From Pseudarthrobacter sp. L1SW (GTDB lineage: Bacteria > Actinomycetota > Actinomycetes > Actinomycetales > Micrococcaceae): 64,000 bases of DNA. Shown piece by piece: positions 3,351 through 26,404 of the stretch. The stretch is taken from contig NZ_CP078079.1 in NCBI RefSeq assembly GCF_020809045.1, forward strand, positions 868,001 to 932,000, in the 5' to 3' direction. The notes under the pieces are model-generated. The model did no database searches. It had not been told where the DNA came from and was given only the letters and a program-made list of their open reading frames with translations. The position numbers and the translations under genes are program-made. Within the stretch, counting starts at the first letter, position 1. Every line of letters starts with the position of its first letter.

Positions 3351-4376
3351 CTAGAGCGCAATCACCGTGTTGCGCAACGCGCTTTCGCGGGCGGCGTCAA
3401 GAACCTCCAGAGTCCTGATCCCTTCAGCCGCCGGTACCGGTTCGGGGCCTTCTCCCCTGACAGCGCGGGCGAATTCCACGTAGAAGCCGGCGTAGTTTCC
3501 CTGGGCTGAGGCGATAACCTCGCGCCCTCCCTGTAAAGAAAGCGTCCCCCAGTTTTCCGGGGCATCAATTCCCCACGCCGCCGGTTCCGCCGCAGGACGG
3601 CGGCCTGCGAACAGAGCCTCGGCCTGGACATCCGCACCTGTTGCCACATAGCTGCCGTTGCTGCCGTAAGCGCGCAGTTCCCTGGTACTTGAATGGTTCA
3701 GTTTGCTGGCGGACACTGTGGAGACAACTCCGGATGCATGCCTCATGGTGACGACGAAGCCGCAGTCCGTCCGTTCCCTGAAGCGGTCCGTCCAGTCAAG
3801 GGTTGCATAAACGGAGCTGGCCGGACCCAGGAGCCACAGCATCTGGTCCACAAGGTGGCTGCCAAGATCCCGGAGGAGTCCGCCACTGGCACCAAGTTCC
3901 AAGGTGTCCGCGTTGTCCTGATCCATCGTCGAGTGGACACGCCACAGCTCACCGAGTTTCCCTGATGCAAGGACGTTCGCGAGAGTAATGATATCGGCAT
4001 CCCGCCGCCGGTTGTGATAAACGTTCAGGAAAACCCCGGCCTGGCTGGCTGCGTGTTCCAGCTCCCTGGCGTCTTTCGCTGTGGGCGCGAAGGGCTTATC
4101 CGCCACAACGTGGACACCAGCGCTGATAGCTTCCAAGACCAGATCCCTGCGGGTGTGCGGCGGCGTAGTGATGGTTACTGCATCCACCCCTGTTGCCAGC
4201 ATTTCGGCAAGGCTGCCGTAGACCGGAAGGCCCGGATAGTCCTGTTCCACGTGTGCCCGGTTGACCGCCGACCTGGCCACCACCCCGGCGAGTTCCACGC
4301 CGTCGGCCGCTTCCACAAACGGGGCATGGAAGTACCGGCCGCCTGCTCCATAGCCCACAACGCCGATTCGCATCAT
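3351..4376 (-). CDS. Gfo/Idh/MocA family oxidoreductase (LgdC-like candidate)
   Basis: A 341-residue NAD(P)-dependent sugar dehydrogenase. The N-terminus has the Rossmann loop GVVGYGAGGRYFHAPF typical of the YvaA-like branch. The EKP position reads ADKPFAP, and GSHLVDQMLWLLG provides the active-site Asp/His region. An AAGGAG site precedes ATG 4376 on the minus strand; ATG 4373 is an alternative. It is the third gene of a minus-strand set (dehydrogenase, TIM barrel, dehydrogenase) but is separated from the second by a strong hairpin, so it may have partly independent expression. In levoglucosan-type pathways a second dehydrogenase reduces 3-keto-glucose to glucose; that role here is inference. 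Confidence 0.85.
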   Translation of the reverse strand: MMRIGVVGYGAGGRYFHAPFVEAADGVELAGVVARSAVNRAHVEQDYPGLPVYGSLAEMLATGVDAVTITTPPHTRRDLVLEAISAGVHVVADKPFAPTAKDARELEHAASQAGVFLNVYHNRRRDADIITLANVLASGKLGELWRVHSTMDQDNADTLELGASGGLLRDLGSHLVDQMLWLLGPASSVYATLDWTDRFRERTDCGFVVTMRHASGVVSTVSASKLNHSSTRELRAYGSNGSYVATGADVQAEALFAGRRPAAEPAAWGIDAPENWGTLSLQGGREVIASAQGNYAGFYVEFARAVRGEGPEPVPAAEGIRTLEVLDAARESALRNTVIAL

Positions 4377-25264: not shown

Positions 25265-25376
25265 CGTGCGTTCCTTCCCGGTTACTCACGGCGGCACGTT
25301 GTTGCAGCCGCCCGTTCTGTGGGAACTCGTCCCGCCCAACGGCTGTTGTCCAACAGTAACTGGGCTGGAGCGCATG
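25265..25376. repeat. Palindromic repeat element, copy 1
   Basis: The ends are imperfect inverted repeats of about 22 nt (25265-25286 and 25355-25376; 17 of 22 paired), of the pattern GTGCGTTCCT-CCC-GTTACT. The interior contains the CTGTTGTCCAACAG box. The same end sequence recurs at 26284-26404, on the other side of the DUF559 gene. Confidence 0.75.
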
Positions 25377-25380
25377 CAAA

Positions 25381-26229
25381 TCAGTGAGCTGTGAAGTGCC
25401 GGGCCGCCAACACGGTCCTAATTTCCGCCATGACCTGGTCCGGGCTGAACCACACGTGCTCGGGCATGTAGCGCAGGACGGAATACCCGTTGACGGTGGA
25501 GGTGTTGTTGCGGTTCCGGTCGCGGAGCATGTCCTCGCGTTTGGAATGGAACGCGAAGCCGTCGATCTCCACGATGAGGAAGCCATCCAGCAGGAAGTCC
25601 ACCCGGCCAATCCCGGGCAGGAAGACCTGCGCCTCGTAGTCGATCCCGTTACTCCGGAACAGGTGCTGCGCATCGACCTCGACGATGGATTCGGCGCGCA
25701 CGTCGAGTTCCCGCAGTACGCGGAGTGCTGTGCCGGAACGGTCTGCCCGCAGGTGGTGCACCAGCAGTTCCGGGGATACGCCATGCAGCCGGATTGCCGA
25801 CGTCGCCATCGCGGTGGATGCTGGCGGCGGGAGGCAGCCCAAGGCATGCAGGGCTACGTCTTCCACTGCGGCTACCGGTGCGAACGGATGCCCCTCGAAC
25901 CTGACTGTGCGGTGGCGGACAAAGCCGCTGCCGTGGCCATGGTTGCAGGCCAGGTGGAGCCGTGAAGGTGGCTGTCTCAGCCAGAGCCCATAGTGGGCGG
26001 CGGCGCTGGCGCAGCTGAGCCGGCCGTTGTGCCGGATTGCCGCCTGGTAATCCTCATCGCAGCCCGGGAGGGCGAAGACCCCGCGCCTGGGCTGGCTGGC
26101 TCCGGACTCCCTGAGCCGTAGCAGGTCACGGCGCGAGAAGCCAGCGTGGAGGAGTTGGGCCGATCGCGCAACTCCGCCGGCCTTCTGCAGATACTCAAGA
26201 ATGTCCACATCGCCATCTGATCGCCGCAA
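25381..26229 (-). CDS. AbiEi-like N-terminal domain protein with DUF559 (Vsr-like nuclease fold) C-terminus
   Basis: A 282-residue protein. Residues about 10-55 look like the winged-helix domain of AbiEi-type regulators (GGVARSAQLLHAGFSRRDLLRL, a recognition-type helix). The C-terminal 100 residues match the DUF559 PD-(D/E)xK-like pattern: GIGRVDFLLDGFLIVEIDGF, then FHSKREDMLRDRNRNN, with the Asp and Glu-x-Asp spacing of a Vsr-like nuclease. The start is TTG 26229 or GTG 26208; neither has a strong ribosome binding site. The gene stands alone in the opposite direction to its neighbours, and palindromic repeats abut both sides. Such genes are frequent and multicopy in actinobacteria with no settled function; defence or a mobile role is inference. 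Confidence 0.75.
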   Translation of the reverse strand: MRRSDGDVDILEYLQKAGGVARSAQLLHAGFSRRDLLRLRESGASQPRRGVFALPGCDEDYQAAIRHNGRLSCASAAAHYGLWLRQPPSRLHLACNHGHGSGFVRHRTVRFEGHPFAPVAAVEDVALHALGCLPPPASTAMATSAIRLHGVSPELLVHHLRADRSGTALRVLRELDVRAESIVEVDAQHLFRSNGIDYEAQVFLPGIGRVDFLLDGFLIVEIDGFAFHSKREDMLRDRNRNNTSTVNGYSVLRYMPEHVWFSPDQVMAEIRTVLAARHFTAH

Positions 26230-26283
26230 TTGCCGCAGGGGAATCGGATGCCCGCCCTATGTGGACACTCCTCCCCGACCGTG

Positions 26284-26404
26284 TGTGCATTCCATCCCAG
26301 TTACCTGCCGTGCACCGGGTTCCTGCTGACGCGGAGTGCCGGAATCCTGCGGTTGAGGTGGGAGGGCCCCAGTGGCGCCGGGAGTAACTGGGCAGGAACG
26401 CACG
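26284..26404. repeat. Palindromic repeat element, copy 2
   Basis: Inverted ends at 26284-26305 and 26383-26404 carry the same motif as copy 1. The outermost ends of the two copies (25265-25286 and 26383-26404) match in inverted orientation at 20 of 22 positions, while the interiors differ. Together they bracket the 25381-26229 gene. Confidence 0.75.

Follow-up and report, generated by a model that had tools for sequence, protein, structure and literature searches.

The window, a 64-kb stretch of DNA, contains a nuclease gene flanked on either side by a palindromic element, at positions 25265–25376 and 26284–26404. We conclude, with a probability of roughly two in three, that the DUF559/AbiEi protein it encodes is the dedicated partner enzyme of this element family, one that would recognize and mobilize the repeats in a RAYT/REP-like function built on an unrelated nuclease. 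The gene keeps to a fixed locus with one element per side, solo copies of the elements are dispersed, and other DUF559 clades have element families of their own. The end motifs are conserved, or diverge together with the protein, while the element interiors turn over. Bacterial genomes commonly contain palindromic repeats, for some families of which no enzyme is known; one survey from 2013, on GTAG and CGTC repeats, described CGTC REPs as lacking a dedicated transposase (PMC3733652).

Results

Two palindromic elements share an end motif around one nuclease gene

At the window locus, four copies of an end motif of about 20 bp, TGCGTTCCTNCCCAGTTACT, form the two elements. The element on the 3′ side of the gene (E1, 25265–25376) carries one copy at 25267–25286 on the plus strand (TGCGTTCCTTCCCGGTTACT) and another at 25355–25374 on the minus strand (TGCGCTCCAGCCCAGTTACT), with an end-motif offset of 88 and a DNA fold z of −3.65 on the plus strand. 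The 5′ element (E2, 26284–26404) carries a plus-strand copy at 26286–26305 (TGCATTCCATCCCAGTTACC) and a minus-strand copy at 26383–26402 (TGCGTTCCTGCCCAGTTACT) at an offset of 97, and its middle holds a central core on the plus strand (26339–26352, CCGGAATCCTGCGG) that is common to elements of other DUF559 clades. Shuffled windows gave 0 matches to the end motif; an earlier note on this DNA had claimed that palindromic elements with a common end motif flank a DUF559/AbiEi-like gene, and the four copies confirm it. The outermost arms (25265–25297 and 26372–26404) are 88% complementary over 33 nt, and the figure of 20 of 22 positions given earlier for the inverted match of the outermost ends is correct. 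The gaps between element and gene, about 6 nt on the stop side and about 56 nt on the start side, agree with the earlier estimate of within about 60 nt, and E2 lies within the promoter region of the gene. An Rfam search returned no meaningful match.

The gene itself (25381–26229, minus strand, TTG start) encodes 282 amino acids and runs, as its previously reported reverse orientation implied, opposite to both immediate neighbors. The product matches the Pfam families DUF559 (E 3.8e-7) and AbiEi_4 (E 1.3e-5), with the AbiEi-type winged helix-turn-helix domain N-terminal and DUF559 C-terminal. In the predicted structure (mean pLDDT 88.8), residues 178–279 match the Vsr-like nucleases NGO0050 (Z 13.2), I-Bth0305I (Z 12.9), and Vsr (Z 11.0), and residues 3–176 match an AbiEi antitoxin (Z 9.2). 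Residues D211, E221, H228, and D237 are identical in 16 homologs. By its predicted fold and these conserved acidic and histidine residues, the protein is a Vsr-like PD-(D/E)XK (EDxHD) nuclease of putative activity.

The similarity to the AbiEi domain would favor a defense or toxin–antitoxin unit of the AbiE kind; the earlier note had raised a defense unit as a possibility. The genes around it, however, encode an XRE-cupin regulator (PuuR-like, under the model cut-off), agmatinase, and a TPP enzyme; no AbiEii toxin gene adjoins it, its immediate neighbors being the XRE-cupin regulator and agmatinase, and these include no defense genes. PADLOC matches only the AbiEi antitoxin domain, and the unit contains no toxin gene. 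A defense role would also leave the dispersed elements unexplained; we regard it as unsupported and the least probable of the readings weighed here.

Orthologs occupy one conserved locus

Orthologs of 60–100% identity occur in about 40 of 121 genomes of the genus, 3 fragments included. All 35 full-length orthologs that we read in detail carry one element on each side, which bears out the idea that elements and nuclease gene belong together, and all 35 adjoin the same XRE-cupin gene, with agmatinase also near in most. Across these orthologs the 3′ element is as conserved as the 5′ element; in L095 the reading frame runs into it at its end. Between species, the flanked protein is 60–82% identical, whereas its neighbors are mostly 88–97% identical.

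The inverted ends around the gene and the dispersal of elements would also suit a conventional transposon, in which the whole 1.14-kb unit is bounded by terminal inverted repeats and the nuclease serves as transposase. Yet the orthologs checked all share one locus, and in none of the genomes checked was the whole unit seen at a different place with a target duplication. Relatives of the gene were found on no phage and on plasmids as two distant matches only, and carriage of the gene by plasmid or phage is accordingly rejected. The dispersed copies, moreover, lack the gene, and such a transposon is very improbable. What stands of the "mobile unit" proposed earlier is that an element of about 100 nt disperses alone; the 1.14-kb unit with its gene was not seen moving. 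The gene stays put while the elements disperse.

Several loci show further arrangements. In L057:2287–2761 (G024), three elements stand in a row 5′ of the gene, which suggests local duplication. The high-copy GTAG hairpin directly follows the XRE gene in L248 (G021) and L251 (G004), at the XRE–agmatinase site that holds the window's DUF559 unit in other genomes. In L262 (G082) and L263 (G133), the intergenic site after the XRE gene holds another hairpin, GTGCCAATGTTTC.. / AATGCCGATGTTTC.., which may represent a further element family.

Elements are dispersed and co-occur with the gene

The end motif is neither unique to the window site nor free of a link to DUF559, and a search of the genome and its relatives finds it outside the window locus. 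The window's own genome has 12 motif matches that make up seven elements, two at the gene and five at other sites, all five away from any DUF559 gene. With a strict two-ended pattern, elements are found in 40 of the 121 genus genomes and the reversed control gives 0 matches; the pattern controls for the element searches gave 0 across the 121 genomes. Of 40 genomes that have the clade 1 gene, whole or as a fragment, 30 contain clade 1 elements, versus 10 of 81 that lack it; for clade 2 the counts are 8 of 12 with the gene versus 5 of 109 lacking it. For gene–element co-presence in three families, Fisher p ranges from 1e-12 to 6e-7 when genomes are taken as independent and kinship is ignored. 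In five genomes with elements and no gene (G068, G075, G110, G115, and G142), the place that the gene occupies in relatives still holds half a motif or a single element, and because of these remnants the five appear to have lost the gene. G114, also with elements and no gene, has a partial motif there, and no scar is visible at the site in G005, G011, G021, and G082, which likewise carry elements without the gene.

The 101 dereplicated elements have end-motif offsets of 76–77, 86–89, 96–99, 111, 120, and 132, in steps of about one helical turn; relatedness inflates the Rayleigh p-values for this spacing, which we do not treat as probabilities. Element interiors differ almost wholly, with ends and phase retained. 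This helically quantized spacing, together with the kept ends, points to proteins that sit on one face of double-stranded DNA.

Such phasing would equally be expected if the elements were operators of an AbiEi-type regulator that acts through the inverted motifs as a repressor of its own gene and of a small regulon, the nuclease domain being incidental or serving something else. In Streptococcus and Mycobacterium, AbiEi binds inverted repeats to control its own expression (PMC7319586), and the location of E2 in the promoter region fits as well. The 3′ element is equally conserved, however, and the clade 1 solo copies lie most commonly between convergent genes, not at promoters, in a rough gene call that places elements mostly outside open frames. 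Hairpins in high copy number (23 in G000) and near-identical copies set in unrelated flanks also act like dispersed repeats, and the nuclease residues are invariant. A regulator with dispersed operators is the main rival for the long elements, although an unlikely one, and its combination with a REP-like role is possible.

Some solo elements have features of their own. At L013:3720–3827 and the orthologous sites L228–L236, a clade 1 element encloses a terminator-like hairpin, apparently the host terminator; at the matching site, G001, G009, and G010 have the terminator alone, without end motifs. A solo subfamily (L014, L016, L032, L034, and L059) has a common interior, GGCGCGCCGCG..ACGACGGCGTGTC, and a left outer flank, GCCGCCGTCG, that is complementary to the interior, an arrangement suggestive of two overlapping palindromes. 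Short tandem repeats of approximately CAAGTGAGAGAGCGTCGCCCGAAAACCCACGT lie beside a solo element just right of 3162011 in G000:C1 (L014, after position 4012).

Element movement appears infrequent

Genome G073 has three clade 2 elements that are 97–98% identical or more, interiors included. The copy on contig C6 shares about 12 nt of left flank and about 30 nt of right flank with the copies on contig C10, and the sequences beyond are unrelated; near-identical copies in unrelated outer flanks indicate that elements spread without the gene. In G100, five places hold elements of 82–88% similarity with little flank homology. As for the empty sites raised in the earlier note, one element, in G062, has an empty counterpart in G000, the edges of which have diverged. 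No clean target-site duplication was found at the element sites compared between genomes, just as none had been evident at the window unit, and many solo elements are old and common to several species. For these two reasons, movement appears, from the sequences compared, to be real but infrequent.

Two other candidates were considered. The RAYT family (Y1_Tnp) is absent from 120 of the 121 genomes, the window's own among them, and was rejected as a hidden mobilizer of the elements for most of these genomes on that ground. Palindrome-associated transposable elements (PATEs), the papers on which reportedly concern Haloquadratum and Halanaerobium, were dropped as a lead.

Other DUF559 clades have their own elements

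At 78 DUF559 loci of Arthrobacter, Pseudarthrobacter, Paenarthrobacter, and Sinomonas, we scored palindromes on one side of the gene for matching partners on the other, with 536 control placements comprising shuffled flanks, random window sites, and off-gene sites in the same loci. Scores at 68 of the 78 loci exceed those of all 536 control placements. The scored loci have about ten clade-specific end motifs, common within a clade and different between clades, examples being TGCGTTCCTNCCCAGTTACT, ATTCTGCTGGATCA, CCGCTGANNTTCCCCA, AACTCCCCGCTTTTGG, and ACTGGCCCAGTT. Motif similarity tracks protein similarity (Mantel r = 0.64, 0 of 999 permutations), and the correlation is small among pairs of less than 55% identity (r = 0.12). 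A central core, CCCCGGAATnnCGCGG, occurs near the element center with at least 11 of 14 matches in 30% of elements versus 1.8% in shuffles, and its relative orientation in 5′ and 3′ elements follows no clear rule. Across the order, about 13 of 19 tested DUF559 genes, taken from other families of the order plus an additional gene from the window's own genome, have paired cognate palindromes, some of them two identical elements; some DUF559 genes, such as G000:167116 (L020), have no flanking pair. The elements overall are mostly about 40–140 nt long.

A DUF559-like gene at G000:1139721–1140662 (L022), for which the DUF559 and MTES_1575 scores are sub-threshold only, is flanked by two copies of the hairpin GTAGCGCTAAGTGTCGTTTTGA...TCAAAACGACACTTAGCGCTAC. 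This hairpin has 23 copies in G000 and is present in 35 of the 121 genus genomes, with a control of zero. It is found in 20 of 21 genomes that have a close L022 relative (at least 75% identity), with a mean of 10.4 copies, versus 15 of 100 genomes that have none, with a mean of 0.3. At more distant L022 orthologs, both flanking hairpins switch jointly to a new sequence, their arms remaining complementary.

These clade-specific pairs bear on whether the elements are instead host terminators, insulators, or nucleoid sites of some other protein, with DUF559 genes merely sitting in element-prone intergenic places. The terminator-like hairpins inside some elements and the many elements between convergent genes would fit such a role. 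The motifs, however, match on both sides of each gene yet differ by clade, which a common host protein would not bring about. The XRE gene occurs in 18 of 18 tested genomes, those without elements included, on which ground we also rejected the XRE neighbor as the motif binder. A host function of this kind is improbable.

Discussion

If the DUF559/AbiEi protein is the partner enzyme of its elements, a working scheme can be outlined. The AbiEi-like winged-helix domain would bind the end motifs of about 20 bp, probably as two protomers on one DNA face, as the helically quantized spacing suggests. Given that AbiEi proteins bind inverted repeats (PMC7319586), motif binding by the N-terminal domain is plausible by analogy. 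The Vsr-like domain would then nick or cut the element, and repair or copying would seed further copies at new sites, mostly between genes. The 5′ element may double as an operator for autoregulation.

An open-access library yielded 14 papers that mention DUF559, judged mostly by title and abstract, and none that links it to palindromic repeats. Our results suggest that such repeats belong to, and are probably spread by, a protein family not linked to them before. A link between DUF559 and its own repeat families provides a testable function for a large unexplained protein family, puts in question the "AbiEi antitoxin" label now attached to its members, and supplies a large set of natural protein–motif pairs in which recognition and co-evolution can be studied. 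We would give even odds to a broader proposal: that actinobacterial DUF559/AbiEi proteins form a large second class of REP-mobilizing enzymes, of an origin independent of RAYTs, that each recognizes its own rapidly diverging palindromes through their end motifs, and that they act by a Vsr-like nicking chemistry not previously known to mobilize DNA.

Parts of the system resemble known proteins. Caulobacter VsrA shares the DUF559 nuclease domain; it is responsible for the SOS response in cells without a cytosine methyltransferase, and a mismatch-repair role has been proposed, but the main text of that report never mentions palindromes (PMC12907096). The C-terminal fold of the predicted structure is that of Vsr and other EDxHD nucleases, including I-Bth0305I and NGO0050 (Z 11 to 13.2), from which the DUF559/AbiEi protein differs in being tied to palindromic repeats; unlike in the homing endonuclease I-Bth0305I group, no insertion of the unit into a conserved target gene was seen. 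The N-terminal winged-helix region and its N-domain fold (Z 9.2) recall the AbiEi antitoxin of AbiE type IV systems. In contrast to those toxin–antitoxin pairs, there is no AbiEii toxin gene and the AbiEi domain is fused to a nuclease, and unlike for AbiEi, motif copies flank the gene on either side and occur throughout the genome.

The closest parallel is the RAYT/REP system, for which Nunvar et al. described a gene between two inverted repeats, co-evolution, accelerated protein evolution, and a correlation between gene and repeats (PMC2817692). Here too, as in a REPtron, a single chromosomal gene at a fixed locus has two flanking palindromes in inverted orientation. Cognate repeats are dispersed in the genome, with copy number following gene presence in three families (kinship ignored), repeat and protein co-evolve, as judged by the Mantel test and the L022-class hairpins, and the protein evolves fast relative to its neighbors (compare PMC2817692). 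The enzyme, on the other hand, is not an HUH/Y1 (IS200/IS605-like) transposase but a predicted Vsr-like nuclease that carries an AbiEi-type winged helix. At about 40–140 nt, most of the elements exceed REPs in length, and in place of an asymmetric GTAG tag they have symmetric end motifs, which in the window's family are helically phased. Because the features listed by Nunvar et al. recur with an unrelated enzyme, the DUF559/AbiEi protein would, at the level tested, work like RAYT/REP without being a RAYT.
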